Positions 2,577 to 43,334 of a stretch of DNA of 54,854 nucleotides are shown here, piece after piece. Numbering within the stretch: position 1 is the stretch's first letter; every line of letters starts with the position of its first letter. The notes beneath the pieces were generated by a model that did not search any database, was not told where the DNA came from, and was given only the letters and a program-made list of their open reading frames with translations. The position numbers were made by a program, and so were the translations under genes. The stretch covers positions 326 through 55,179 of IMG/VR virus record IMGVR_UViG_3300029309_000055; one strand, written 5' to 3'. The DNA comes from a virus.

Positions 2577-3746
2577 CTAAGTTGAAGAAGAAGGAGTTCC
2601 TCCATCACTTCCTTGAGGAGAATTTTCTTGAAGAGCTAAAATACTGCTAATTGATGATATACTTCCTGTATCAACATATCCTGTACCGTTGGTTGGAGCG
2701 CTACTTCCTGCAGCTCCAAACCCTCCAAAAAATCCTCCAGTGTGCTCTGTTGTCTCTATTATAGAAGGTTCCTCCCCAAATTCATTGTCTATTGGAGGTA
2801 TAAAAGAAGGCTCATCTATTTCCTCTATAATAGACGGCCCACCATCAAATGAAGGAATTTCAGGATTTGGTTGATTAGGTTGTTGTCCTTTTATGCTTCC
2901 TCCTAAAGGTATGAAATTAGGGTTGTTAGTAGCTGTTGGCAGATTGTTCTGGTTAGTTCCTACACTCTGACGAGGGGCTTCAAAAGTACCTGCAGGATTA
3001 TCATCAGTAGCCGTAGTAGTTAAAGAGTATGTACCCCCATCAGAACTGCTTGGTGCTTCTGATCCATCAACAATGGTAGTAGCGTAATACAAATGATCTT
3101 CAATGCTTTGTGTTATTGATGTCTCTCCATCAGCGGTCTTATTAAATGAACCTATCTTTATGTGATATCGGCCTTTGTTTGGGGCCTCTCGAAGAAGTTT
3201 ATTGTTAACTTTTTCTAGCTTGCCACAAGGCTCTTCCTCTGGAATCTCATCCGCTTGTGGTATAAAACTTAATGTACATTCACTGATTGTATGATTAACT
3301 GCATCAAGATAAAATTTAAGATACACTGTCCCGAACTTACCTCCGCTTGATAGAACAGAAAACTTTCTATTTTCTCCTCTTTGTCCTATAAAACTAGCTG
3401 GTGTTATGTTGCCAAAACTAGGTAAGGGGCTTTGGCCTTTTATACCAAACCTTGTAGTGCCTCCAACATCAAACCCTTCAACCTGAATAGCTGCTATACT
3501 AAAATATAAAACGCCATAATAACATACAAACTGAGTTCTTCCGTCTTTCTGTAAAACTTCTAGTTCAAAAGGATGTTTCTTACCTTCAAAAAGATCTGTA
3601 GGATTATTAGACAACTCATCTGTACCAAAATAATTATTATTTATAGCGCCAAAATTATCTTCATCATAAGTTTCGGGCCAGCTTTCAAGATTCCCTACTC
3701 CTGATGTGTCTATAGATACTTCATTATTATAAATGTCTTCTGACAT
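2577..3746 (-). CDS. virion structural protein with acidic/proline-rich C-terminus
   Basis: The protein has 389 residues. About residues 60-220 form a beta-rich part (FELEVLQKDGRTQFVCYYG and onward). From about residue 225 it becomes low complexity, rich in Pro, Ser, Asn and Glu, with a repeated PSII(E) and PSFIPPID-like pattern, and then Gly/Ser-rich to the end. No enzyme motifs are visible. It is spaced 2 bases from both neighbours in the leftward operon. A tail, fibre or head-decoration role is inferred from context only. Confidence 0.65.
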   Translation of the reverse strand: MSEDIYNNEVSIDTSGVGNLESWPETYDEDNFGAINNNYFGTDELSNNPTDLFEGKKHPFELEVLQKDGRTQFVCYYGVLYFSIAAIQVEGFDVGGTTRFGIKGQSPLPSFGNITPASFIGQRGENRKFSVLSSGGKFGTVYLKFYLDAVNHTISECTLSFIPQADEIPEEEPCGKLEKVNNKLLREAPNKGRYHIKIGSFNKTADGETSITQSIEDHLYYATTIVDGSEAPSSSDGGTYSLTTTATDDNPAGTFEAPRQSVGTNQNNLPTATNNPNFIPLGGSIKGQQPNQPNPEIPSFDGGPSIIEEIDEPSFIPPIDNEFGEEPSIIETTEHTGGFFGGFGAAGSSAPTNGTGYVDTGSISSISSILALQENSPQGSDGGTPSSST

Positions 3747-6197: not shown

Positions 6198-6232
6198 AAT
6201 ATTGTTTTGTTTATATGTTTGTAAATAAATAA

Positions 6233-6265
6233 CCCCGATCCCCTACTTTTGCAAGAGGATCGGGG
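6233..6265 (-). terminator. hairpin terminator after the 196-residue gene
   Basis: CCCCGATCC at 6233-6241 pairs perfectly with GGATCGGGG at 6257-6265 around a 15-nt loop. It lies just downstream (leftward) of the gene ending at 6292. On the minus strand the stem is followed by TTATTTATTT, a weak U-tract, so it is terminator-like but not canonical. Confidence 0.6.
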
Positions 6266-6291
6266 ATTATTGTGATTTGTTATGTTACTGA

Positions 6292-6882: not shown

Positions 6883-6924
6883 AATTTTTAAATTCTAAAT
6901 TTAATATATTTAAAGTTAATTTAT

Positions 6925-6952
6925 GTGGGGTTCCCTTTTACAGGAACCCCAC
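6925..6952 (-). terminator. strong hairpin after the major capsid gene
   Basis: GTGGGGTTCC at 6925-6934 pairs perfectly with GGAACCCCAC at 6943-6952 around an 8-nt loop, eight bases past the capsid gene. The sequence beyond the stem on the minus strand is AT-rich rather than a pure T-run, so it may act as a partial terminator or as a 3' mRNA protector for a highly expressed transcript. Confidence 0.65.
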
Positions 6953-6959
6953 TTTAGAA

Positions 6960-8279
6960 TTAAGCAGCAGGTGTGCTTGAGTCCCTCTTGAAGAGAATCA
7001 TGAATCCAAAGTCAGTCTTGATCGGCTTAGAAGCAGATGCAAGGATACCTCTGAAGAATCCAGTCTCACTGTCAGGGTTAATGACAGCATCAGGAATGTT
7101 CAACCACTTAAACTCACCTCTGTAGTTATTAGCAGAGAAATCAACTCCGCTTCCAACTGAGCTCAAAGGTGCTGGAATCTGTGACTCCATCACGTCAGGA
7201 TGCAAAATAAATGCAGCCTCATATTCAGCAGAATCGTAACTACTGTTATAACTAGATACGCCACTCGATACTGAGTAAGGAAGTACTCGTGTGAACTGAT
7301 CAGTGCTTGCCAAAGAAAACCTTGGAGCAAGATCGTCAACTAAGTGATAGAAACCTCTGAAAGATTTCTCGATTCCTAATGGAGCAATAAGATCACTTAC
7401 TGCTGCATTGTTGTAACGAACGTCATCACGGAAACCTGCTTCAGTCTGAAGCTGATAAGATGCCTCAGATGAAAGAACAAGTGCAAACACTGGACGGCCA
7501 TTCTCACGACCGTAAGCATTAGTACCTGCACCTCTACGAATCAAGTTGAAGTAACACTTATCAAGAATTGCATTTGAAATGTTAGCATCAGGAATGCCAG
7601 CAACTCCTGCAGCACTAAGGTCAAGAGCTCCTGAATCGATGCCATCTCCTTCAAAGGTTCCGTCTTGTCCGTCAATAGCGGTTCCACTAGTCTTACATCC
7701 AACATAAGCGTCAGATAATTTAGCGTACTCATCACGATAACGGTTCTCCCAAGTGTAGCGGGTAGCTTCAGTAAGAAGATCCATGATCGCACGAAGTTGC
7801 TCTCCACGGTGGGCAGCAAAACGCATGTCATTTAGAGATATGCGTGGTGACTCAATAGCAGCTCTTGCAAGCTGGTACTGCTTGAGCTTTTTACCGAAAT
7901 GTACAAATGATGTACCTGCAGCGACATTAGGCCCAACTTCAGTAGCCATTGTATCACCGTTTGGTAATGGCTGATCGAGAGTTGATGTGCCTAAAGTTCC
8001 GCTACCTTCAGAGGCAGCTACGTTAGTCCAGTCGGCTCCGACTTGGCCTGAAGCACTACTGCCTCCTGCTTGAGATACTGGAATGGCTCTGTCGTAAACT
8101 AGAGTTGTTAAGAATCCACCAGACTGGTCTGGGAATGTTGTTTGTCTAATAAGATCCATCCAAGGACTTGTATGGATAGTCTGTCTGTGTATGTCTGCAC
8201 CAATGCGGTTAGCCTCTTCAGCGAGAACAGTCTCGATGGCAGCGGTTCCACTGGTAACAGGGTTAAATGTATGGGCCAT
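6960..8279 (-). CDS. major capsid protein
   Basis: The 439-residue protein has the size and position of a phage major capsid protein: it follows portal and scaffold in the same leftward block and has its own long leader and a strong 3' hairpin. Its bases and codons are noticeably less AT-rich than its neighbours, as in highly expressed genes. The C-terminal region (ETGFFRGILASASKPIKTDF, then MILFKRDSS) looks like the end of podovirus capsid proteins, and the N-terminal part is helical, like an E-loop/N-arm region. An HK97 fold is expected for this family but cannot be proven from the sequence alone. Confidence 0.8.
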   Translation of the reverse strand: MAHTFNPVTSGTAAIETVLAEEANRIGADIHRQTIHTSPWMDLIRQTTFPDQSGGFLTTLVYDRAIPVSQAGGSSASGQVGADWTNVAASEGSGTLGTSTLDQPLPNGDTMATEVGPNVAAGTSFVHFGKKLKQYQLARAAIESPRISLNDMRFAAHRGEQLRAIMDLLTEATRYTWENRYRDEYAKLSDAYVGCKTSGTAIDGQDGTFEGDGIDSGALDLSAAGVAGIPDANISNAILDKCYFNLIRRGAGTNAYGRENGRPVFALVLSSEASYQLQTEAGFRDDVRYNNAAVSDLIAPLGIEKSFRGFYHLVDDLAPRFSLASTDQFTRVLPYSVSSGVSSYNSSYDSAEYEAAFILHPDVMESQIPAPLSSVGSGVDFSANNYRGEFKWLNIPDAVINPDSETGFFRGILASASKPIKTDFGFMILFKRDSSTPAA

Positions 8280-15994: not shown

Positions 15995-16036
15995 AGTTAA
16001 TTTACATTATCTAATATAAAAACTTTTTTATATTCT

Positions 16037-16053
16037 GTATGCAGTTTCTTGCA
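16037..16053 (-). repeat. 17-bp control repeat, copy A (inverted)
   Basis: This is the reverse complement of TGCAAGAAACTGCATAC. With copy B it forms an inverted repeat extended by an AT-rich flank (CTAAAA(A)T), with about 60 nt between. Confidence 0.9.
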
Positions 16054-16114
16054 ATTTTAGGTCATTTTACAAAAACCCTATTTTTATAGGATGAAACTCA
16101 TATTTTCTAAAAAT

Positions 16115-16131
16115 TGCAAGAAACTGCATAC
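16115..16131 (+). repeat. 17-bp control repeat, copy B
   Basis: Exact TGCAAGAAACTGCATAC. Copy C follows 40 bp later in the same orientation. The unit contains two TGCA half-sites ten bases apart, centre to centre, as expected of an operator bound on one DNA face. Confidence 0.9.
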
Positions 16132-16154
16132 AAAACCATCTTTTTTATACATAA

Positions 16155-16815: not shown

Positions 16816-16834
16816 TTAACAACTGAATTGTTAA
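16816..16834. repeat. variant of the 19-bp palindrome
   Basis: TTAACAACTGAATTGTTAA differs from the operon palindrome at one base and sits outside any gene, directly before the parS-like sequence. Confidence 0.8.
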
Positions 16835-17529: not shown

Positions 17530-17607
17530 TTCAACTGATTTCAACGGATCGAAATATAATAGGTATCACAGTTAATAATTTATGAGGTTATTAGCTTGGC
17601 AATTTAT

Positions 17608-17648
17608 CCATTGCACTTGTGACTTGAATACCGTCACAAGTGCAATGG
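17608..17648. promoter_or_regulatory. 16-bp perfect inverted repeat in the leader of the 17743 gene
   Basis: CCATTGCACTTGTGAC (17608-17623) and GTCACAAGTGCAATGG (17633-17648) are perfect reverse complements with a 9-nt loop. No T-run follows, so it is not an intrinsic terminator. It may be an operator, an attenuator or a translation-control hairpin. The right arm also overlaps an outer pair AATGGTC/GACCATT (17644/17680) that encloses the next palindrome. Confidence 0.85.
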
Positions 17649-17656
17649 TCTGAGTC

Positions 17657-17675
17657 TTAACAATTCAGTTGTTAA
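17657..17675. repeat. variant of the 19-bp palindrome
   Basis: TTAACAATTCAGTTGTTAA is the operon palindrome with one arm base changed. It lies 67 bases before the ATG of the first gene of the operon. Confidence 0.85.
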
Positions 17676-17742
17676 GATTCTGACCATTGAAAACAATGGA
17701 AAAAACCTAACAATAAAACATTAAAAAATAGAAATTAATAAT

Positions 17743-18282
17743 ATGGCTAATAAAGCAAATAAGAAGAATACAATCGAATTAACTGCAGATCAAAAGTCAG
17801 TTCTTGAGACTGTAACAACTGAGCTAACAACTGCGAGAGATTCATTTATTGAAGCAATCTTTAAAGCAACTGAAACCCTTAAAGAAATCTTAGTTGAAAA
17901 GATTAAGGTAATGGAACAAGCAAAAATTCCTAGTGTCGTAATTTATAAGACAGTTCAGAATACTTGTGCTCCACTGGTAAAGAATGGAAAAACAACTCAG
18001 CAAAACCTAGCTAAGATTCTGAATGAAAGGGGACACCATCTTAGAAAAACTAGAAAGGATGCAGGAATTACTAAGACTCTCAACAAGGTATCTACTGGAT
18101 ACATCAAAATTGCTGAGTCAACAGTTAAGAATGTCTTAATCAATAAAAACGATAGTGATAAGAAAAAGAAGCCTGTCACTGCAGAACAGATTGCGAAGTT
18201 GTTCAAAGCTGCCTCAACTGAGGAGCAAGTTAAAGCTGTAAACCTTATAAACGAGATTGTTACAGAATTAGATAAGAGTTAA
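17743..18282 (+). CDS. first gene of palindrome operon, helical protein, possible regulator
   Basis: The 179-residue protein is almost entirely helical and Lys/Thr-rich. Residues about 20-65 and 140-178 look like amphipathic helices; residues 75-115 (PLVKNGKTTQQNLAKILNER, then HHLRKTRKDAGIT) could hold a helix-turn-helix-like segment. No family is recognised. It has the most elaborate leader in the window, with three successive inverted repeats, and its TAA stop lies inside the 19-bp palindrome at 18279. This makes it a candidate for an autoregulated DNA-binding protein; that is inference. Confidence 0.6.
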   Translation: MANKANKKNTIELTADQKSVLETVTTELTTARDSFIEAIFKATETLKEILVEKIKVMEQAKIPSVVIYKTVQNTCAPLVKNGKTTQQNLAKILNERGHHLRKTRKDAGITKTLNKVSTGYIKIAESTVKNVLINKNDSDKKKKPVTAEQIAKLFKAASTEEQVKAVNLINEIVTELDKS

Positions 18283-18419
18283 CAACTGAGTTGTTAACTT
18301 GTCACTTATCAAGTGAGCATTGAACAATGCACCACTGACAACTAACCCTTGCCAGTGGTGTAAATTCAATTCTTAATTGACCGACTTAACAACTGAGTTG
18401 TTAACAACTCAGTTGTTAA
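18279..18419. repeat. seven back-to-back inverted repeats, including three copies of the 19-bp palindrome
   Basis: In order: TTAACAACTGAGTTGTTAA at 18279-18297; CACTT/AAGTG 18303-18315; GCATT/AATGC 18317-18330; CACCACTG/CAGTGGTG 18330-18360; TCAATT/AATTGA 18366-18380; the 19-bp palindrome at 18386-18404; and the same palindrome with a C centre at 18401-18419, overlapping its neighbour by TTAA. Almost every base of this non-coding gap belongs to an inverted repeat. Confidence 0.9.
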
Positions 18420-18448
18420 ATTAATAACATCTAAACCAAGTAAATAAA

Positions 18449-18871
18449 ATGATACTATCTATATCAATAGCCGTAATAATCTGCATCGGGTTACCTGTAT
18501 CTGGATTAATAATAACAAGCAAACAACTGAGTAGGAGGGAAGCCGACTATCAGCTTTTAAGAAAGCACTACACTGATAAGTTCTTTCGTCTCGAAGAGTT
18601 GGAAGAACTACACGATTCCATGACCAGAGCTAGGGATCTATGGGAAGATAAATATAGAAAACTAAAAGTGGACTATAAAGAACTAAGGGAAAAACATGAT
18701 AGTGTTGTAAAGGATTTTGATGATTACCATCGGAGGGTAATGGATGAAGAATCACGTCAGCATGATTCGAAACTTTTAGATGAAATAAGTCTAGAAGTAG
18801 AGCAACGCTTTATAGAGGAACTAAATAATCGTATGCCTATTATACAATTACCAAACAACGGAGAAGATTAA
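18449..18871 (+). CDS. membrane-anchored coiled-coil protein
   Basis: The 140-residue protein has an N-terminal membrane segment at about residues 3-24 (LSISIAVIICIGLPVSGLII) followed by a highly charged coiled coil at about 28-120 (DLWEDKYRKLKVDYKELREK). This layout resembles inner-membrane spanins and other phage membrane-anchored coiled coils, but it lies far from the lysis genes and lacks a partner lipoprotein. Its stop overlaps the 18868 palindrome. Function unknown. Confidence 0.65.
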   Translation: MILSISIAVIICIGLPVSGLIITSKQLSRREADYQLLRKHYTDKFFRLEELEELHDSMTRARDLWEDKYRKLKVDYKELREKHDSVVKDFDDYHRRVMDEESRQHDSKLLDEISLEVEQRFIEELNNRMPIIQLPNNGED

Positions 18872-18886
18872 CAACTGAGTTGTTAA
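18868..18886. repeat. 19-bp palindrome at gene end
   Basis: Exact TTAACAACTGAGTTGTTAA; the stop TAA of the 18449 gene is bases 2-4 of the palindrome. It is followed by an ATTAACATACAAACC-type leader and AAAGGA before the next ATG. Confidence 0.95.
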
Positions 18887-18923: not shown

Positions 18924-19415
18924 ATGAGTGAACTAGAACACTTAGAATTGTGGACACGTCCACAGAATTACATCGGAGAAACATGGGAGGATCATTACGT
19001 ATTCTTGTCACAGATTAGAGACAGTGATGCATTGCAACGATCCAACTTCACCAAAGGATTGGAGGCGATAGGCGGTGAAGATCCTGAGATGGTGATCGTT
19101 ACGAGTGCGAGTCATTGGGCTTGTGGATGGATAGAGACTATCTACATCCATAAAGATGCTCATGATGCTTTGAGAAAAGCGGATGAGATTATGGGTGAAC
19201 TAAAAGATTACCCAGTCATAGATGAAGAACACTTCTGTGAGCTTGAAGAGGCTGATGCTCAAGAGGTGTGGAAGTATTGCTATTCCCCAAAAGAAAGGGT
19301 CGAGTTCTATCGGAAGTGTTGGCATTACTGTGGAACCATGTCATTCAAAAAGTTACTCCACAGCGTGAGGACGGGGGATATATTCTACGGCTACGCAAGC
19401 GACATACTTAATTAA
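18924..19415 (+). CDS. conserved phage protein with SHWACGW motif
   Basis: The 163-residue protein has an N-terminal YVFLSQIRDSDALQRSNF stretch, then HWACGWIETIYIHKDA around residues 64-80, and DYPVIDEEHFCELE around 94-107. This combination recurs in uncharacterised phage proteins (usually 'WACGW...VH....A...A......L..YPV.DE..FSELE'). The conserved His, Cys and Glu residues could form a metal site. Function not known. Its stop lies inside the palindrome at 19412. Confidence 0.7.
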   Translation: MSELEHLELWTRPQNYIGETWEDHYVFLSQIRDSDALQRSNFTKGLEAIGGEDPEMVIVTSASHWACGWIETIYIHKDAHDALRKADEIMGELKDYPVIDEEHFCELEEADAQEVWKYCYSPKERVEFYRKCWHYCGTMSFKKLLHSVRTGDIFYGYASDILN

Positions 19416-19430
19416 CAACTGAGTTGTTAA
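19412..19430. repeat. 19-bp palindrome at gene end
   Basis: Exact TTAACAACTGAGTTGTTAA containing the stop codon of the 18924 gene. The leader that follows (AACAAACAAACAAGAAAGGA) is nearly the same as that after 18868. Confidence 0.95.
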
Positions 19431-19858: not shown

Positions 19859-19908
19859 ATGTGCCATGTGCCATTAACAACTGAGTTGTTAAATGGTGCA
19901 TGGCACAT
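19859..19908. repeat. 19-bp palindrome inside a 50-bp extended inverted repeat
   Basis: The core TTAACAACTGAGTTGTTAA is at 19874-19892. Its flanks, ATGTGCCATGTGCCAT at 19859-19874 and ATGGTGCATGGCACAT at 19893-19908, are complementary at 14 of 16 positions. A further pair, TTCAA/TTGAA, lies at 19829-19844. So the extra flanking symmetry here is specific to this site. Confidence 0.9.
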
Positions 19909-19949: not shown

Positions 19950-20411
19950 ATGAAGCCAACATATATAAAAGAAACTAAGACAGCCTTGCAACTTGCAAAG
20001 GAATACCATGACGGACAACTACGTGCAGTTGGCACAGACATGGGCAAGCCGTACTTCGACACCCATATTCTAAGGGTAACCAATGCGGTGAGCTATAGAT
20101 CCAGAGCTGCTGCAGCACTGCATGATATTCTGGAGGATACAGTCATGTCATCACATGAACTCGCTTATGTAGTAGGACTCAGACAAGACACCATTGATGC
20201 GGTCGATCTACTGACGCAAGGGGAGGATGAAAGTTATCACAACTACATCATGAGGATTCACAGTGCAGAAGGTGAGGCAGGTAACATCGCAAGAGAAGTG
20301 AAGATCGCTGACCTGATGGATAACTTCTCAACCTTTCCAGAGGGACAGCTTGTACCTAAATACTTAGCAGCATTGCACCTATTAACAGAACCATACAGAA
20401 CAAAACTTTAA
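19950..20411 (+). CDS. HD-domain small alarmone hydrolase-like protein (SpoT/MESH1 type)
   Basis: From ATG at 19950 the protein has 153 residues, about the size of a stand-alone HD hydrolase domain. It has the expected metal-site spacing: His39, the HD pair at 58-59, the Glu-Asp at 62-63 (ALHDILEDT), and Asp121 with Asn125 (KIADLMDN). The 'DESYHNYIMRI' segment is also typical of RelA/SpoT hydrolase domains. These enzymes remove pyrophosphate from (p)ppGpp, so the phage may damp the host stringent response. No synthetase domain is present. The in-frame ATG at 19893 overlaps the palindrome and is less likely. Confidence 0.8.
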   Translation: MKPTYIKETKTALQLAKEYHDGQLRAVGTDMGKPYFDTHILRVTNAVSYRSRAAAALHDILEDTVMSSHELAYVVGLRQDTIDAVDLLTQGEDESYHNYIMRIHSAEGEAGNIAREVKIADLMDNFSTFPEGQLVPKYLAALHLLTEPYRTKL

Positions 20412-20426
20412 CAACTGAGTTGTTAA
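20408..20426. repeat. 19-bp palindrome at gene end
   Basis: Exact TTAACAACTGAGTTGTTAA containing the stop of the HD-domain gene. Confidence 0.95.
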
Positions 20427-20917: not shown

Positions 20918-20936
20918 TTAACAACTGAGTTGTTAA
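20918..20936. repeat. 19-bp palindrome after gene
   Basis: Exact TTAACAACTGAGTTGTTAA one base after the TAA of the 20698 gene, and 33 bases upstream of a strong promoter-like sequence. Confidence 0.95.
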
Positions 20937-21975: not shown

Positions 21976-21994
21976 TTAACAACTGAGTTGTTAA
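21976..21994. repeat. 19-bp palindrome after gene
   Basis: Exact TTAACAACTGAGTTGTTAA two bases after the stop of the DUF3150-like gene. The leader that follows (AAACATTAACTAAAAAACTA) recurs almost unchanged after 23201. Confidence 0.95.
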
Positions 21995-22028: not shown

Positions 22029-23204
22029 ATGAATACCGAAACACCAGAAATCAAATTCAGCGACGTACAAACACAAGCTGAAATCGTATACTCATCAGGA
22101 GACTCAGTAATGATTCTCTTGGGGGCGGGAGGTACAGGCAAGACAGCTCTTGCCAATGCCTCAGTAACTAAGGCTATCGCTAAACTCTACGGAGTTACCG
22201 ATGAAACTGTAAAGGTGTACAAGTGTAACTACACTGGTGCATCACCTCTTGAGATCACAGGTTATGGGGTCTTGAAGAAGGGTGCGAATGGTGAGGATCT
22301 CATGTCATTCTCAGAGCCAGAGGGTATACCGACGGCAGCACTCCTTGAGAGACTTGGCATGGAAGATACCCCTTGCTTGCTAGTCTTCGATGAGATGCCA
22401 GAGTGGGCAGCGGATACAAGATCGTTGGTACGTAGTACTGTCGATCCAGATGGCGAGTCTAAGATTGGCTCGCATAGGCTTGGCGAGAATGTCAAGATAC
22501 TCGTGACAGGTAACCGACGTGAGGATGGATCACGCTCTGCAGTACTGGATGCCCCGATAGTGAATCGTGGTAATCAGTTTATATTAAAAGCAGATATCAA
22601 CTCATGGTTGAGTTGGGCATCTGAGTTTGCGTGGAGTAAGTTCTCACCAGTCGTTGAGTACCTACAGTTCAACGCTAAGTTGGAGAGTGGTAATCACTTC
22701 GCTCCACCAATACCGCAGCCTTGGGATGGATCACCGCATCCAACTCCAAGGTCATGGGCTAGTGCTGCTAGACAGATCAACTACATCGAGAACAACCTTG
22801 AGCTTAGTAAGTCTGAGTTCAACAAGCATCTCAAGCTGACGCTGCAGTCTAAGGTAGGAGACACTACGGCTCGTGACTGTATCGCTTATATCACCAGTTC
22901 ATCAGGATTACTTGATGACCTTGATGCTGTACGTAAGGGTACTATGAAGTTGTCACATAAACCTACTGATCAGTTCAAGATGATCCACGCTGCACTACGG
23001 ATCATGGACATTGAACTAACTCAGGCTGAACAACGAGGCAGGGACAGAGGAACGGCTGTATCTGCAGGTGATGTAGATTGGTTCGTCGAGAATCTTTTAC
23101 TACCCGCTACCAAAGAGATCGGTAGAGCAGGATACCATGCAGCAATCAACGTGGACATTCCACTTAACGAACACCCTAAAAACCACGAACTGAAAGGACT
23201 TTAA
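22029..23204 (+). CDS. MoxR/CobS-type AAA+ ATPase
   Basis: The 391-residue protein has Walker A GAGGTGKT at residues 32-39, Walker B LLVFDE ending at residue 122, and a sensor-1/arginine-finger region ILVTGNRREDGSRS around 157-170 followed by APIVNRGNQF. This is the layout of MoxR-family ATPases, which work with VWA proteins as chaperones in assembling or remodelling complexes; CobS of cobaltochelatase is a relative. Its stop is inside the palindrome at 23201. GC content is visibly higher than in the virion genes, suggesting separate origin. Confidence 0.85.
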   Translation: MNTETPEIKFSDVQTQAEIVYSSGDSVMILLGAGGTGKTALANASVTKAIAKLYGVTDETVKVYKCNYTGASPLEITGYGVLKKGANGEDLMSFSEPEGIPTAALLERLGMEDTPCLLVFDEMPEWAADTRSLVRSTVDPDGESKIGSHRLGENVKILVTGNRREDGSRSAVLDAPIVNRGNQFILKADINSWLSWASEFAWSKFSPVVEYLQFNAKLESGNHFAPPIPQPWDGSPHPTPRSWASAARQINYIENNLELSKSEFNKHLKLTLQSKVGDTTARDCIAYITSSSGLLDDLDAVRKGTMKLSHKPTDQFKMIHAALRIMDIELTQAEQRGRDRGTAVSAGDVDWFVENLLLPATKEIGRAGYHAAINVDIPLNEHPKNHELKGL

Positions 23205-23219
23205 CAACTGAGTTGTTAA
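23201..23219. repeat. 19-bp palindrome, last copy
   Basis: Exact TTAACAACTGAGTTGTTAA containing the stop of the MoxR gene. No copy follows any later gene in the window. Confidence 0.95.
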
Positions 23220-29148: not shown

Positions 29149-32100
29149 TTATTCTACAGGAATGTAACGCCCGTAAGTGTTCAACTGACTCTGATATGTT
29201 CGAAGTCTTTCGATGTGTGTATCACCTTTCCTAACCATATTATTAATAAATGGCTTAGTTAAAGAAGGTCTTTCCATCAAACCATTTAGTAGCAACGCCA
29301 TCCTTCTTTTGCCATATCCTTTTTCCATAGCTTGAGAGTATATCTGTTGGTTAGTAAGACCTAGTTTTCTGTAGCCTCTAAATGTTTTAATAAGATGTTC
29401 ATTAATTCGTCTACGCCTCTCAACATCAGTGTCTGCTAGTTTTTGAATGAACCCTTCAGAAAGAGAATTATCCGTGTACATACGACCTTTGATTGAAGAT
29501 GATCTTCTGTATTCGGCAGCCCTTTCTGATAAAAACCTATCTAACGATCTTTCTGGTTGTATCCTAAATGGCTTGAGAGGTAAGAACTCTTTAGCTACTG
29601 CTCCCAGAGGAGTTAGTATGAAGTCTGTCATGTCAGGATCTCCCTCCATAAGTTTTACAAAACCTTCTTTGTATATTTTTTCAGGGGTACGGGGCATTAA
29701 AGACTCAGCAAAGACAAAGCTAAATGTTTTGTATAAAGACTCAAATGAAGTGTCATTTACTTCTCTGATAGGCTTTCCTGTTTCAGGATCTCTATTAGAT
29801 ATGGCGCTTGTAACTGCACCCGCTAATATCTGCTGATCTAAATATTGATCTGCTATCATGGCTTTTGCAAAAGCGCCTCCTGCTTGGGACGGAGAGCCTC
29901 GCCAAATTTGCTCAAAGGCACGTAAGAACGGATCAACCATCATGGCGTATGGGTTTAGATATGTAAGATCAAGAGAGTATAACTCATCTTTAAACGGCAC
30001 GTAGAAGAATGAATGAGTTCTTAAATACTCAGGCATCGAGTCTCTTAGAGCCTCATCTTCATCATCTCCTATTCCAGAAAGTGTATTTACGATTACAGGA
30101 GCTAGTGCTGAAAAACCTACAAGAACACCTGTAAAACTCTGGAGTCTTTTCTTACCACGTTTTCTTATAACTGGATTAGAGTCACTCATTTCTTCTTTAG
30201 CTAAACGGACTGTATTAATCATGATCCGTGGAACCTCTAGTTTGAATCGGATGAATGGGGCAAACATTACTCCAAACCACGTATCTTGTAGATTCTGTAC
30301 GAAAGGAGGTGCTTGATCATAACTCTGAGCCGTTCTTTTTACTTTTTGCGCTGCGAGATCCATCAGCTTTTGGTCAGACATTTCAGCATAATTTATCCCG
30401 CCTTGAGTGTTATGCTTTGCTCTTGCCTGTTGTAGTACCTCTAATTCATTCATGAAGTAAGCTATCTTATAAAAGCTATCCACTGTCTGAGAAAGTTCAC
30501 GCAATCTACGCCCTATAAATTTACTGCTTTTAGCTACTTTTGAGTCTGATAATTTTTCAAGAGAATCATCTAGAAAATCTTTATTTTCTACTTTTTCTTG
30601 AGCTTTAATTTTATCTAACTCAGATAAAAGTTCATTTTGAAATTGCTCTTCTGACCTTGGGTTAGTCAAAAAGTCTTGTATTAATCTAGACTCTATTTCA
30701 TTACCAATCACACCTAATGAAATTAATGTTCTATGAAAGGCACTAACTTCTTGGGGAGTCATTGATAAGTATTTCTTCCGCATGAATTCTTTTCCAAAAG
30801 ATCCAAGCATCTTGTTCATACCCCAAAAGCCTTGCGAAGGCCCGAAGAACAAAACGTTAGATAGAATATTACGAACATAGAACCCGACAGACCCTAAAGT
30901 TTTAGCTCCCAATGAAAGGCCAGTAAGGCGAGACCCTACCTTAGTCATAAACTCTTGTGCCTTTTTTGCTTCTGTTTCTTTTACCTTTGCTTCGGGACTT
31001 AGTATTGCTTCCAGAGCTTCTTTCAGTTCAGTGAGAACGTAGTAGCTTTTACCATCCTTAAAAGGAGCATTCACAACAGGGTTACCTTCTGGATTTTTAT
31101 TACTTTCATTATTTTCATAAAGTAATGAAAACCCTTCGGGAGCTTCTTGTCCCTCTTTCTTTTCAATCAAGAAGGGATCTCCGCTAAGTAACGTCGAGCT
31201 AGTACCAAATTTTTTAAGGTTTCTTAAAAAGTTTGCATGTGCAGCTATTAAGCCAATGTGTTGGAAGGTTTCTAGAAGAGTATCGAATCCTGTTGTGTCT
31301 TCAGACTCACCTAAAAGATCCCGAAGTTCTTTTGGAGGGTTCTTCCTTTTCTTCAAAACATCTGCATTCAAACTAACAACACCCTTCGTATGCGTTCTAA
31401 GAGATTGAAATAGGTTAGAGGTTTCTCTTTTTTCTGAAAGATGTATATCAAGATAATCGTTTACTAAAGCCTCCTTGAATGCTTGAACATCGGTCTTTTT
31501 GTCAGGGTCTAAACCACGATCAACCATGTCAGATTCCCATTCTTTGTTGAGCGTCTTATATTGTTTTAATAAAAAGGCTCCAGCAGTGGCTCTTACATTT
31601 TCATATTTCTCATCTTTTCTAATGCTATCACGATATTCCTTGTCGGTGAATAGCCTATACGTCTTGTGGAGGTACATTTCCATGTTATCGTCAATGGCTA
31701 TTCCTATCTCAGAATCAGCTCCAACTATATCTCTAATTACTCCAGATATTTGATCCGTTAAATCACGCAGTCCCAAAACTTTTTTATTGCTGTCCGATAA
31801 GTCAAGACCATCGCCAAGAAGGTGCTTAACAAGTCTTGTGTTATTGGAGTCTTTTTCAGGTACATTTTGTAGTTTACCTAATTCAGTAATAGCTTGTTTT
31901 TTCTTATCCCTAAACTCTTTCTTTTTCCTAGCAACATACGCAGCTCTTACCTTTTTGATTTGATCCTCAGTAGATGCTCCTGCATTCACAAGGTCATCAG
32001 CATATTCTTGATCGGTCTCAGGGGTTATGTTTTCACGACTACCTGTAAGGATCTGAATCAATTCGACTGGCGCTTTACCTCCAAAGTCCTCTTTTATAAT

Positions 32101-35100
32101 CAAATCTAACTGAGCTTTGAACTTTAAAAAATCATCCCCTACCGCTTCTTGTATTTGTTTGCGTTGCTCAAGAAGCCTCTTTACTCTGATATCTACATCA
32201 CCTGTAAACTTATTAAGGAACCTACCAAAAATTCCTTCTTTCTTTCTTTGATATTTACCTGTTGCTAAGAATGGAAGCTCAAATAAAGGGGGGTAGCTTC
32301 CATACTCTATACCTCCTTCATCGGTATCAAAAGAGCCACTTTCAATCCCACCTGCTTGTGTTTCACGAACCTCTGATAGATAGTCAGATATAAAGTCTTC
32401 AGGTATATCTAGTATCTCAGGATTTACTCCTGCTTCTTCTAAGATAAGATCCCACCCATCTTTACCTAAAGGTATAGGATCGTCCTGACTTGAGATATAG
32501 AAGTCAATGGCCTCATTGAAGGCTTTAAATTTTTCTTCGTCTGTTTTTATATTATTTGAACTAAGCTCTTGTTTAATTATACGAGAGGCTTTTCTAGCTT
32601 CGGATGGCGATATGAATGTTGCAAAACCTGTGTTAGTATCACTTATTTTTTTAGAGTTATCTAGAGTTGTAATAACACTGTCTAATACCCCATCAACATT
32701 GTTTAAAGCACCTGCTTGTGTTTCACGTATATCTGTTGAAGGCGAATACCCGAACTCGTATATTGAGTTGCCTTCAGTAAATAGCTCTCCTGCTTTGACT
32801 TCTTTTCTTAATATCTTAAATCCTTCATCTCCATGCATCCTAGCGCCATGCAATTCAGCATACCTAATGTCAGTAGTAACCCAATCACCAGCATTTATCA
32901 CTGCTCCTTGTATATTGTTCGGGACACCCCTATAAACAATTACTTTTGCTTCAGGCTTTCCACGTACAGATACAATTTGATTATATACTTTCTGGTCACT
33001 GATCGTGTCGTATGAACTACCAGTACCATAAAGCCTTAATCCATCAGATGAGTAAAAATCAGATGGATAAATACTTTCATCCATAGCACTCATTGGCGAT
33101 CCGTAACCTCTGTCGGGCGCTGTATGAGCTCCCCTATATTCAAATGAACCTTCTTGCGTTTGTCTTACGCCCATATCGATCTTCCTACTTGGGTCACGAC
33201 TTATGGAGGGAGCGTCATCTAAAAATTCAATTAATTTATCTAAACTTTTCTCAGGATCATCAACATCAAACCTTACGACAGGGTCTATATCAAACCCTCC
33301 TTTTAGCCTAGCCATCTCACCTGTAAGCCTGTTAACTGCAGCAGAGACTACTGGATTGTCTTTATCAAGTTCCCTAGCCGCCTTAAAACGATTTACATAT
33401 GAACGTAAGTAGCGTAATAAGACACGGACAAAGTTTGGATTACTTTTATAAAATTCTATCTCCTCTTCTGTTGTGTACCCTTTCAAAATTCTTTGGGCTT
33501 TCATTCGTAAGAACTCGTCAACAATAACGTGTTGCTCACTAATTCTTTGACTTGATAATGAAGTAGGGCCAAGCCTTTGACGAGAGGCTGCCTTCTTCTG
33601 ATCAGTATTATAGTAGAGATTTACAATCTCATTTATTTGATCAACATTAAAAGTTTCAAAGATAACGTCTATCTCTGCTTTGCTTAAATTTCTCCACGAT
33701 GCATGATGTATTACCTCATGGAAGGCTTCAAAGCGGGCAACATGCTGTGCATTGCTTTTATTTAGACCCATAGTTAGCCTAGCTAACCCAAAAGGATTAA
33801 TTACTAAAACCATGCCCTGTTTAGTTCCTACTGCTCTATACGCACCAAGGAATTTATTTTTCTTGTTGCGGTCAACCCGAACCTCCATACCAAAGAAGGA
33901 AGCTACTGTTTCTGCATCACGTCTCGCTTCAATATATCTGTCGTAGTGTTGTTCAGCAGTCTGCCCTTCTCCTAACTCTTCTGAAAGCTCTTTAGTTCCC
34001 CACACAGCGTCGAACTCACCAATAAACTCTTCTTCTCTTTTTATCTCCTGTTGTCTCTTTATCTCTAGCTCCTCTTCAGTTTCTTGTGAAAGACCTCCCG
34101 CCTGTGTTTCTCTCTGTTGGCTTTCTTTAACAATAACATCAGAATCCTGTTCGGTTATCTTTTTTTGTGCGAGCTCTTTATCTATGTCTTGAATAAGAAG
34201 TTCTTTGGCTTGAGAAACTTCAACGCCATCTACAAAACCTTCAGCCTCTTTAAGAGTAGAATTAGTTCTCTCTTCAAATTCTTTTTGTGATATTTGACCA
34301 CTAAGATACTCGTTGTATCTATCGGTGATCATATCAACATCAACATCAGAGACAGACGTGGTAATAGGCTCTCTAGCTCTTGATGCGGTTCGCAACTGTC
34401 TAGTTATCTCTTCTCTATTGTCTCGTAAAAATTGTTGTGTTAAAGGAGATGACCCCTCTAGATCAGAGATAATGTTATCTATAGTATCTTCTTGGAACTT
34501 TTCATATCTAGCGCCCCTACCTTTATCCATCATTGATTGCACACCAACAACTCCTCCACCCATAACGCCCCCTATACTGGCTGCATGAAGGCCAGTCATA
34601 ACTCTATCAATCATCGGTGTGTCTTCATTAAGAGCAGCATCCATAATGAATGTCTGTATAAATTCATCAATACCTTCTTCAGCAGCTTCACTCGCTGCTG
34701 GAATTCCAAATTGTCTTATAAACCTAGACTTTTTAGCTGCTTGTTTGAGTTGCTTTTCAATACTAACTCTTATGGCTTCTTTTACTTTGGTTGATGTTAA
34801 ACCTCTTACATCTAAATTAAGTATCTTCGACATACCTGCTGACATACCTTTGTATGTCATACCCCGTAAAAAGGCTTGTTCAAAACCCCCTAAACCTACA
34901 CCCATAAACGCTGAAGTAATTAGTCCCGTAGTTGTTCCAGATAATAACGCATACCCTAACGCTGCGTCATGTTTTTCTTCATGAGTCAAGTTGTCTGGCT
35001 GTGCATCGTATATTGTCGCATACGTGTTACCTGCACTTCTGTTTGCAGCAGTCAAAAATAAAGACGGAAAAGGAGCAGCTTTTCGGAAGACCCCATTTGC

Positions 35101-36873
35101 TACTGCTTTGTTGTATTGTTTAATGGCTTCCTGCACTCCTTCAGAAGCCACTACGTCAACAGAGTCATTTACTTTTTTTTGAACTTGCTTCTTTAGAGCT
35201 AAGTCTTTAGCTGTATCTCCAAACTGTCTCCCTGTTACTGCCTTTGTTAAATTTTTAGCTAGTGCTTTAGCAGTGCTTGTAACTCCTGCTTTTGTACTAG
35301 CGTAAGCAACACCACCAAGACCTAAAGTTCCCGCAGATAGCAAAGCTGTCGCAGAGACATCAACAACCATTGGCGCAACCACGTTTGAGAGATCCATACC
35401 CCAGCCAAAATCATCACCGAAAACAGAAGCGATATCTCTTCTGCGCTGTCTGGCCCTTTGATTGTCTACTAAATACTTTGTAGCTCCCTCGCTCTTAAAT
35501 ATAACAGCCCCTAAAGAAGCAAATAAACCAATTACTGCGTCGGGAACAGTTGCTACGACATCTCCTAATCTGTTTTTTATAGAACTGTAATTACGTCTGT
35601 CAGCCAAAAATTCATCAAGTATGTCTGTATCAGATAAATTTTTAACTTTGCCCGCTTGTTTAGCAGCCATCCAATTATTACTTGTGGCTGCTGAGTCAGA
35701 TAAAAATTGATTGTATTGGTCATAGGTAAGTTCCCTGAACAACTTACGCTGATTCCTGAGTGATTTAAGCTGACTTGGTGAAAGCCTATCATCTGATTCG
35801 ATTGCTCTTTCAAACACATCCTTTTGCTGCATTAGGTTTGGATGGGCTAGTACATGCCCACTGCCTAAGATACGAATGTTTTTTGTGTTATCATCTTCAT
35901 AAAAATTAAACTCTCCTCTTTCATTTACTTCGTTAGCTGCTAATAATTCAACAGCCTCTTTAATCTCTTTGTCTGAATATCTTTGTAAAGCAGCCCCTTC
36001 ACCAAAACCATTTTTAGATGCATAAGCCGCAGACAGCCCTTTGCGAATGTCGCCCACTACAGCCAAAACATCGCTTTGCTGATTAGCAGAAGGGTCTAAG
36101 TCTTTTGCTTTTACAAGACCCCGCATGACATCAAGAGCATTTTGAGATACTTCACCAGACCTGTCATCAGACCCTAGAACATTATTTAGCTCTGATAAAA
36201 TTTGAGCCTCTCTAATAATTTCAAAATTTGTTTTAGCGTCTTGCTCTTTTTTAAGCCCAGACATAACACGATACGCATCTGAATAATTTAAAGCTCCCAG
36301 CCTAACAGAATCATCTAACGCTTTACCTCTATCAGTTATGTTAACGCCCCCAATAACTTTATTGTTGCCTTTTTCATCTGAGACTCTCGCAAAAGAAAGC
36401 AAACCAGAATCAACTAAGAGTGTCTTGGCAGAGTTTAACTGGTTATCCAACTCTTTTTGGTTGCCGCTGCCGCTACTCTGATTCTCAAGCCAAGTAGATC
36501 CTGCTTGCTCTCCGTAAGCCATACGGATAAGATTAGTCTTTGTTTGTATGTCTGGCTCTGGTTGGATTGTTCGTAATAACTCTTCAGAATTAGCTTGTTC
36601 AGCATCAATTAATTCTTGTTCTAATAAAGAAGATACGAGACCTTGAGTGATGTTAGACTCAAGGTCATCGTTTAGCTGACCTGTACGAAAATAATGACCT
36701 CTTTGATAATTTGCATATCCAAGAGACTTTGTGATTGGGTCTTGTATATTAGCGCCCGCCTGATTTGACCAGACACTTAAAGGTTGAAGAGGAGCAACGA
36801 CGATATTTTCATCGAGATCATTTGGCACGGGGGTTTTCTCCCCCAACGATAATGTTGGATATAAGTCTGACAC
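29149..36873 (-). CDS. giant polyvalent internal virion protein (metallopeptidase + ART-like domains)
   Basis: The 2,574-residue protein starts at GTG 36873. Residues about 430-800 hold several hydrophobic, Gly/Ala-rich segments that could insert in a membrane. Near residue 1052 is HEVIHHASW, a zinc peptidase-type HExxH. About 1240-1385 is an ADP-ribosyltransferase-like block (YRGAHTAP, VIVYRGVP, GDWVTTDIRYAELHG, GNSIYEFGY) as found in phage polyvalent proteins. A short tag RETQAG recurs near 921, 1383 and 1503, with RQTQEG near 1236, at domain borders. The C-terminal third is helical. Such proteins are packaged in the head and injected with DNA. Position beside other internal proteins and terminase supports this. 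Confidence 0.8.
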   Translation of the reverse strand: MSDLYPTLSLGEKTPVPNDLDENIVVAPLQPLSVWSNQAGANIQDPITKSLGYANYQRGHYFRTGQLNDDLESNITQGLVSSLLEQELIDAEQANSEELLRTIQPEPDIQTKTNLIRMAYGEQAGSTWLENQSSGSGNQKELDNQLNSAKTLLVDSGLLSFARVSDEKGNNKVIGGVNITDRGKALDDSVRLGALNYSDAYRVMSGLKKEQDAKTNFEIIREAQILSELNNVLGSDDRSGEVSQNALDVMRGLVKAKDLDPSANQQSDVLAVVGDIRKGLSAAYASKNGFGEGAALQRYSDKEIKEAVELLAANEVNERGEFNFYEDDNTKNIRILGSGHVLAHPNLMQQKDVFERAIESDDRLSPSQLKSLRNQRKLFRELTYDQYNQFLSDSAATSNNWMAAKQAGKVKNLSDTDILDEFLADRRNYSSIKNRLGDVVATVPDAVIGLFASLGAVIFKSEGATKYLVDNQRARQRRRDIASVFGDDFGWGMDLSNVVAPMVVDVSATALLSAGTLGLGGVAYASTKAGVTSTAKALAKNLTKAVTGRQFGDTAKDLALKKQVQKKVNDSVDVVASEGVQEAIKQYNKAVANGVFRKAAPFPSLFLTAANRSAGNTYATIYDAQPDNLTHEEKHDAALGYALLSGTTTGLITSAFMGVGLGGFEQAFLRGMTYKGMSAGMSKILNLDVRGLTSTKVKEAIRVSIEKQLKQAAKKSRFIRQFGIPAASEAAEEGIDEFIQTFIMDAALNEDTPMIDRVMTGLHAASIGGVMGGGVVGVQSMMDKGRGARYEKFQEDTIDNIISDLEGSSPLTQQFLRDNREEITRQLRTASRAREPITTSVSDVDVDMITDRYNEYLSGQISQKEFEERTNSTLKEAEGFVDGVEVSQAKELLIQDIDKELAQKKITEQDSDVIVKESQQRETQAGGLSQETEEELEIKRQQEIKREEEFIGEFDAVWGTKELSEELGEGQTAEQHYDRYIEARRDAETVASFFGMEVRVDRNKKNKFLGAYRAVGTKQGMVLVINPFGLARLTMGLNKSNAQHVARFEAFHEVIHHASWRNLSKAEIDVIFETFNVDQINEIVNLYYNTDQKKAASRQRLGPTSLSSQRISEQHVIVDEFLRMKAQRILKGYTTEEEIEFYKSNPNFVRVLLRYLRSYVNRFKAARELDKDNPVVSAAVNRLTGEMARLKGGFDIDPVVRFDVDDPEKSLDKLIEFLDDAPSISRDPSRKIDMGVRQTQEGSFEYRGAHTAPDRGYGSPMSAMDESIYPSDFYSSDGLRLYGTGSSYDTISDQKVYNQIVSVRGKPEAKVIVYRGVPNNIQGAVINAGDWVTTDIRYAELHGARMHGDEGFKILRKEVKAGELFTEGNSIYEFGYSPSTDIRETQAGALNNVDGVLDSVITTLDNSKKISDTNTGFATFISPSEARKASRIIKQELSSNNIKTDEEKFKAFNEAIDFYISSQDDPIPLGKDGWDLILEEAGVNPEILDIPEDFISDYLSEVRETQAGGIESGSFDTDEGGIEYGSYPPLFELPFLATGKYQRKKEGIFGRFLNKFTGDVDIRVKRLLEQRKQIQEAVGDDFLKFKAQLDLIIKEDFGGKAPVELIQILTGSRENITPETDQEYADDLVNAGASTEDQIKKVRAAYVARKKKEFRDKKKQAITELGKLQNVPEKDSNNTRLVKHLLGDGLDLSDSNKKVLGLRDLTDQISGVIRDIVGADSEIGIAIDDNMEMYLHKTYRLFTDKEYRDSIRKDEKYENVRATAGAFLLKQYKTLNKEWESDMVDRGLDPDKKTDVQAFKEALVNDYLDIHLSEKRETSNLFQSLRTHTKGVVSLNADVLKKRKNPPKELRDLLGESEDTTGFDTLLETFQHIGLIAAHANFLRNLKKFGTSSTLLSGDPFLIEKKEGQEAPEGFSLLYENNESNKNPEGNPVVNAPFKDGKSYYVLTELKEALEAILSPEAKVKETEAKKAQEFMTKVGSRLTGLSLGAKTLGSVGFYVRNILSNVLFFGPSQGFWGMNKMLGSFGKEFMRKKYLSMTPQEVSAFHRTLISLGVIGNEIESRLIQDFLTNPRSEEQFQNELLSELDKIKAQEKVENKDFLDDSLEKLSDSKVAKSSKFIGRRLRELSQTVDSFYKIAYFMNELEVLQQARAKHNTQGGINYAEMSDQKLMDLAAQKVKRTAQSYDQAPPFVQNLQDTWFGVMFAPFIRFKLEVPRIMINTVRLAKEEMSDSNPVIRKRGKKRLQSFTGVLVGFSALAPVIVNTLSGIGDDEDEALRDSMPEYLRTHSFFYVPFKDELYSLDLTYLNPYAMMVDPFLRAFEQIWRGSPSQAGGAFAKAMIADQYLDQQILAGAVTSAISNRDPETGKPIREVNDTSFESLYKTFSFVFAESLMPRTPEKIYKEGFVKLMEGDPDMTDFILTPLGAVAKEFLPLKPFRIQPERSLDRFLSERAAEYRRSSSIKGRMYTDNSLSEGFIQKLADTDVERRRRINEHLIKTFRGYRKLGLTNQQIYSQAMEKGYGKRRMALLLNGLMERPSLTKPFINNMVRKGDTHIERLRTYQSQLNTYGRYIPVE
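32349..32367 (-). repeat. RETQAG-coding repeat in the giant gene (third tag)
   Basis: CACCTGCTTGTGTTTCACG here is identical to 32709-32727, both encoding RETQAG. It marks the border between a roughly 120-residue domain and the C-terminal region. Confidence 0.8.
32709..32727 (-). repeat. RETQAG-coding repeat in the giant gene (second tag)
   Basis: This is the exact copy of 32349-32367. It directly follows the ADP-ribosyltransferase-like block. A diverged first copy lies near 34094-34115 and a degenerate one (RQTQEG) near 33150-33168. Confidence 0.8.
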
Positions 36874-43165: not shown

Positions 43166-43211
43166 ATAAAATTTAAAGAATACTTTTAAATTTGGTTTAT
43201 AATACAGCAAG

Positions 43212-43295
43212 TTAGATATTTTCTTGGTTGATATCTAATTAGAGGACAGGGGTGTTTTTGCTATTTTCTCATCCCTGTCCTCGTTCAATTTTTTT
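43212..43295 (+). terminator. tandem hairpins between resolvase and helicase genes
   Basis: TTAGATAT/ATATCTAA forms a first stem (43212-43239) and GAGGACAGGG/CCCTGTCCTC a strong second stem (43242-43251 with 43273-43282), followed after six bases by seven T. A TATAAT box lies just upstream at 43198. This may be a terminator or an attenuator of the helicase operon. Confidence 0.55.
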
Positions 43296-43334
43296 CTGTA
43301 GACAAATTCTTAGGGCTGATGTATTCATGACAAA

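Follow-up and report, generated by a model that had tools for sequence, protein, structure and literature searches.

Covarying hairpin arrays and a repeated stop-codon palindrome in the predicted early operon of an uncultured tailed phage

Why is the first gene of a phage operon flanked by inverted repeats packed back to back, and do these repeats act as RNA or as DNA? The repeats lie in a stretch of 54,854 nucleotides (the window), which covers all but a small part of a 55,179-base virus record (IMGVR_UViG_3300029309_000055, positions 326 to 55,179). A sequence-only reading of this DNA had offered three explanations: a multi-hairpin RNA, a cruciform-based switch, or a cluster of different operators. 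The inverted repeats that it described around gene 1 were all present, including the perfect 16-bp repeat; the one at 17570-17596 lies just outside the range that it had covered.

The source of the DNA is an uncultured tailed phage. Its terminase had 152 relatives among IMG/VR contigs. The terminase and portal had no match in 50,697 deposited phage records, and a genome scan with the terminase as query found no host. The sample series of the relatives suggests that the phage is marine. Two more distant phages, G021 and G026, belong to the same virus group (portal 67-70% identical): G021 has a portal 67-68% and an ATPase ~40% identical to those of the window, and the portal of G026 is 70% identical. 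CRP-7, considered through its ATPase as a cultured relative with shared architecture, was rejected because its early region is not hairpin-rich. A tRNA search found none, and a literature search on hairpin-rich phage operons returned nothing to the point.

The arrays stand at the start of a gene cluster that runs rightward; a leftward block containing the portal gene faces it. The cluster encodes a small basic first protein, an HD hydrolase, an AAA ATPase and a VWA protein; its position and content suggest that it is expressed early. Between the divergent blocks, at 16033-16135, we observed a 26-bp inverted repeat (96%). The C087 version of this repeat apparently differs by matched changes (TGTATGCAGTTTCTTGCA vs TGTATGTAGTTTCATGCA), and it may be another conserved hairpin. 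Strongly folding gaps were also found elsewhere in the window, at 43166-43334 (z -4.7), 6198-6291 (z -5.9) and 6883-6959 (minus strand; z -4.4). These are possibly terminators or other leaders.

Upstream of gene 1, four stems on the plus strand span ~130 nt. In hairpin h1 (17570..17596), the loop TTATGAG is conserved, two of the nine pairs changed on both sides, and 100% of the alignment cells were paired. Hairpin h2 (17608..17648; arms 17608-17623/17633-17648) has a perfect 16-bp stem, nine pairs of which changed on both sides, and its loop AATACC remained constant on the changing stems. The same loop occurs in C376 and C087 on different stems; in C376 the stem is replaced almost completely and the loop is retained. 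The alignment also revealed h3 (17649..17683), which contains an invariant G-U pair and has a copy of the palindrome described below (17657-17675) as its tip, and h4 (17684..17699; CCATTG-AAAA-CAATGG). The CCATTG of h4 can alternatively pair with CAATGG at 17643-17648; the folds 1-2/3-4 and 2-3 are mutually exclusive, and this predicted pairing resembles an attenuator without a terminator. A putative -10 element, TATAAT (17555..17560, plus strand), was read from the leader alignment ~10 nt upstream of h1, and its counterpart in the relatives is TATACT or CATACT. It was absent from the list of a consensus promoter scan. Such an element would set the transcript start near 17567, just ahead of the first hairpin. 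The predicted minimum free energy of the leader RNA (17562-17742) was -58.3 kcal/mol vs -27.7 kcal/mol for dinucleotide shuffles (z -8.5 to -9.2; 0 of 200 shuffles as good).

The second array lies in the gap between genes 1 and 2, where seven inverted repeats fill the 141 bases at 18279-18419, as had been described. They are TTAACAACTGAGTTGTTAA; CACTTatcAAGTG; GCATTgaacAATGC; CACCACTG..CAGTGGTG; TCAATTcttAATTGA; and two tandem palindromes with a common TTAA. The tandem pair (18386..18419, plus strand) has a 15-bp period and jointly forms a 17-bp perfect inverted repeat. In the minimum-free-energy fold, the small repeats 2, 3 and 5 fuse into one long hairpin (18309..18380, plus strand). Its inner stem (18328-18341/18349-18362) covaries, with four pairs changed on both sides. 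The gap RNA (18270-18448) had a minimum free energy of -59.1 kcal/mol vs -28.0 kcal/mol for dinucleotide shuffles (z -8.1 to -8.5; 0 of 200 as good). No Rfam family was matched.

For covariation analysis, five leaders and as many gene-1/gene-2 gaps, all homologous and taken from close relatives, were aligned, a number of sequences that limits the test. Changes on both sides affected 13 pairs of the leader, compared with 4.0 in shuffles (0 of 500 shuffles reached this number), and slid controls gave at most 3. In the second array, 4 pairs changed on both sides vs 1.6 in shuffles (4 of 500). Folding against shuffles and compensatory change in relatives were the two grounds on which the sequence-only reading could have been refuted, and both came out on the side of structure: the two regions folded far better than shuffled sequence (z -9.2 and -8.1), and compensatory changes were present at 13 leader pairs and 4 second-array pairs. 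The opposite strand of both arrays also folded well; because any inverted repeat folds on both strands, folding alone cannot name the strand. On the coding strand, however, G-U occurred in 13 pair columns and A-C in 4, counts that are reversed on the other strand, and this excess points to coding-strand RNA. These findings make structured sense RNA the most likely identity of the arrays. A multi-hairpin RNA is accordingly the best supported of the three options, since wobbles favour the coding strand and gapless dyads, the type expected of double-stranded DNA operators, were much less enriched than hairpins in G026, the most hairpin-rich relative. We found no direct support for a cruciform-based switch.

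One repeat proved to be a recurring element. TTAACAACTGAGTTGTTAA is a 19-bp palindrome with 7-bp arms and one central base. The window contains 10 exact copies (one with centre C) and 13 copies at ≤3 mismatches, vs 0.06 expected. All of them lie within 16.8-23.2 kb; almost all junctions of the 17.7-23.2 kb operon carry one, and no copy was seen elsewhere in the record. On the plus strand, the motif and stop-codon count placed copies on the stop codons of gene 1 (18279..18297), gene 2 (18868..18886), gene 3 (19412..19430), gene 5 (20408..20426) and gene 9, which encodes the AAA ATPase (23201..23219), and just past gene 8 (21976..21994); the motif scan located another just past gene 7 (20918..20936). 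The copy at 19874-19892 forms the tip of a larger hairpin that precedes gene 5 (19859..19908; z of the genes 4-5 gap, -4.9), and a mismatch scan revealed a degenerate copy with one mismatch at 16816..16834. Seven related contigs carry the palindrome in equivalent positions. Three records have 11, 16 and 11 copies in the operon and 0 outside it (these are long pieces, two of them not full length). The sequence-only reading had described the arms of the repeats as unrelated. That description does not hold for the repeats at 18279, 18386 and 18401 or for the tip of 17649-17683, which are all copies of TTAACAACTGAGTTGTTAA.

The palindrome is tied to stop codons. Among 88 copies from nine sequences, 45 had a scorable upstream stop codon, and in 36 of these that codon, TAA, coincides with palindrome positions 2-4. 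An A-rich leader follows, and the distance to the next start codon is mostly 28-35 nt. Across ~100 copies the 7-bp arms are almost invariant, and neighbouring stems drift. The centre on the coding strand reads CTGAG in ~61 copies and CTCAG in 13. The conclusion that the inverted repeats reflect selection for symmetry itself is supported by the covarying stems and by the sequence-varying junction hairpins of the relatives described below; the repeated palindrome with its almost invariant arms speaks against it. Such near-exact conservation suggests recognition of a sequence, which could be DNA, and the palindrome appears to be a specific site. By itself the junction hairpin has little stability (about -5 to -6 kcal/mol; z -1.2 to -2.1), so that a bound protein probably matters there. 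A search of the coding strand at 15.9-25.0 kb for intrinsic terminators (G+C-rich stem plus U run) found none, and the sequence after each palindrome is A-rich. We also observed a palindrome copy within the gene 1 coding sequence of relatives (L024:6150; L007 ~3505-3523, minus strand), which is degenerate at 17812 in the window (GTAACAACTGAGCTAACAAC). Some relatives have a 68-bp insert between two palindromes (L024 ~7834-7939, L019 ~7353-7458) where the window has a single palindrome, a difference that looks like gain or loss of a cassette between sites.

Gene 1 (17743..18282, plus strand) encodes a basic, helical protein of 179 aa without a known family and is a candidate for the protein that binds the site. 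Searches of its product recognised no DNA-binding family, a PDB profile search gave chance matches only, and the structure model (pLDDT 53) was too poor for a fold search. A close relative, C087 (L018), is informative in this regard. Its AAA ATPase (gene 9) is 95% identical to that of the window. At about 14 of its sites the sequence is now TTAACAAGCTCTTGTTAA (in a few, with a single outer base altered), and the window form persists at two sites. The TTAACAAGCTCTTGTTAA sites occupy the same junctions as in the window, among them those on either side of gene 2 and of gene 5 and the one that follows gene 8. Its gene 1 product is 26% identical to that of the window; profile comparison showed the two to be homologous (probability 93%, E 3e-7). 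A search for further members of this type found the gene on the C087 contig only, and the sole other contig bearing its site was C116, with one such copy (GCTC type) alongside a window-type gene 1. The change in C087, a single event, would fit a regulator and its sites having been altered together.

In the distant relatives, hairpins occupy more of the same operon. The leader of G021 is a series of ~14 hairpins, and many of its junctions have a short hairpin of varying sequence immediately 5′ of TTAGAAAGG. Junctions in G026 have two hairpins 5′ of TTAGAAAGGA, with variants matched between junctions. In both phages the hairpins abut the ribosome-binding site, and matched variants include GCTAC/GTAGC and GCCAC/GTGGC. 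The TTAGAAAGGA before genes (L127, L147) presumably matches the tail of alphaproteobacterial 16S rRNA, a hint about the host. The G026 region at ~12.9-24.6 kb contains 113 perfect hairpins of ≥7 bp, most of them with 3-5 nt loops, and its operon (L148/L149, G026:C1:13250-24650; L147) carries perfect hairpins of 7-16 bp at a density of about ten per kb across ~11 kb, coding sequence included. The early genes of G026 contain 58 hairpins vs 3.4 after synonymous shuffling (at most 7), and those of G021 contain 16 vs 1.4. For the rest of the genome the corresponding values lie much nearer to expectation, at 23 vs 11.2 in G026 and 17 vs 14.0 in G021. The window's own early genes have 3 hairpins vs 1.4 in synonymous shuffles. 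Hairpins are thus confined to untranslated parts in the window, and in the relatives they reach into the coding sequence of the same operon. A sense-strand wobble test of the G026 and G021 hairpins gave no clear G-U preference, the pairs being almost purely Watson-Crick; this is not typical of selection on RNA and counts against an RNA-level explanation. The G026 coding hairpins were mostly not kept at orthologous places in G021. With no clear wobble preference and little persistence, a DNA-level or mutational origin is possible for the hairpins of these two phages.

We favour, at a little under even confidence, the explanation that cis-acting hairpins shape the early polycistronic mRNA and that a specific factor reads the palindrome. 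The observed folding, compensatory change, coding-strand wobbles, stop-codon anchoring, confinement to one operon and differing hairpins at the junctions of relatives make the structure well supported, and from it we infer the function. The arrays would be parts of the early operon mRNA, with four serial hairpins in the leader and more in the gene-1/gene-2 gap, and nearly all gene ends would carry one small invariant hairpin (TTAACAACTGAGTTGTTAA), whose 5′ arm mostly contains the stop codon. The hairpins may protect the untranslated stretches of the message from the entry of nucleases and from premature termination, may act as punctuation in them, and may set each cistron apart from the next leader. 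The factor reading the invariant palindrome is possibly the gene 1 product.

A different explanation places the palindrome in duplex DNA, as the site of a phage regulator, probably the gene 1 protein, that acts as a stoperator-like transcription roadblock; the larger RNA hairpins would then be separate. The invariance of the arms amid drifting stems agrees with this, and the joint divergence of sites and gene 1 in C087 is what co-evolution of a regulator with its sites would be expected to produce. In Cluster A mycobacteriophages, stoperator motifs likewise vary together with their repressors (PMC6550527), and stoperators, at which a phage repressor binds and blocks elongation, also occur as many near-identical sites, mostly in one orientation, that vary as a set between relatives (PMC6550527). 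Stoperators, however, are asymmetric 13-bp sites, whereas the present site is a 19-bp palindrome, usually on stop codons and in one operon, with gene 1 a candidate repressor. For a symmetric duplex site, a centre that is mostly G on the coding strand would be unexpected; the ORFs searched included no recognised integrase or lysogeny gene; and gene 1 has neither a recognised DNA-binding family nor a confident model. The pairing of site and gene is also imperfect, given the GCTC-type site of C116 and the two window-type sites retained in C087. We consider this explanation possible but rather doubtful. An unlikely alternative is that the leader acts in cis as an antitermination RNA of the HK022 put kind, allowing host RNA polymerase to read the whole operon, with the second array as a back-up copy. 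HK022 put makes RNA polymerase resist terminators through two stem-loops of ~70 nt with a defined polymerase interface (PMC9378689). The leader similarly consists of abutting hairpins, as in putL (PMC9378689), that would open a phage early operon shortly after a putative promoter; its loops TTATGAG and AATACC are conserved on changing stems, and the coding strand at 15.9-25.0 kb lacks a terminator-like site. Unlike put, it has four stems over ~130 nt and is accompanied by a second array and by a hairpin repeated at the junctions; there is no Rfam match, and the junction hairpins and the coding hairpins of the relatives would be left unexplained.

The hairpins might instead be a mutational by-product, near-palindromes being perfected by replication template switching and small palindromes being spread by recombination between phages. 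The almost strictly Watson-Crick hairpins of G026 and G021 would suit such an origin, as would the 15-bp tandem duplications sharing TTAA, the flips of the centre from G to C, and, in C116 and C372, the gain of a 68-bp cassette between two palindromes. Restriction to one operon per genome, stop-codon placement in 36 of 45 copies and compensatory change at 13 leader pairs argue against it, and we regard it as quite improbable. N4-type hairpin promoters, extruded single-stranded DNA read by a virion RNA polymerase, were rejected as highly improbable. An 8-bp stem with a 3-nt loop ahead of each gene resembles the short-stemmed, 3-nt-loop promoters before the early genes of N4 (PMC4496689), and a very large (2574-aa) protein is encoded. 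The N4 polymerase, however, needs the central loop base of the template strand to be a purine (PMC4496689); in the present loops this base is mostly C. The polymerase was not found: RNA_pol/vRNAP_dom searches of four records gave no match (nor did the control set), and the 2574-aa protein has no TxxGR motif or PDB match. In that protein (29149-36873), only a ParB C-terminal-like stretch (residues 1241-1380) was recognised.

The junction palindrome shares features with other intergenic elements. T7 early mRNA carries RNase III processing hairpins between consecutive early genes, a similar placement in a polycistronic phage message; the present stem of 8-9 bp, however, is too short for a classical RNase III site. 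The start-associated sequences SAS/ESAS of Cluster K mycobacteriophages are repeats at gene boundaries, some with inverted repeats (PMC3203893). They typically lie 3-7 bp before the start codon (PMC3203893), whereas the present palindrome is tied to stop codons ~30 nt (mostly 28-35) before the start. REP elements are also repeated extragenic palindromes (PMC12306157); the present element differs in being operon-specific, anchored to stop codons and 19 bp long.

A more far-reaching proposal, which we hold with clearly less than even confidence, is that this group of marine phages folds the transcript of a single operon, to the exclusion of all others, into packed hairpins, a transcript-wide structural code for early mRNA. 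Some members would use only untranslated parts and stop-codon hairpins, and others would include coding sequence. If true, such a code could, for instance, protect the message from host nucleases, Rho or RNA-targeting defence. Leaders with structure and hairpins between cistrons have each been described singly; for the combination of a covarying array, stop-codon hairpins and, in relatives, hairpin-rich coding sequence, we found no described counterpart. The near-complete site switch in one close relative offers a ready test of which protein reads the sites. If the hairpins act at the RNA level, they would offer a handle on how an early message is protected before the phage controls its host.
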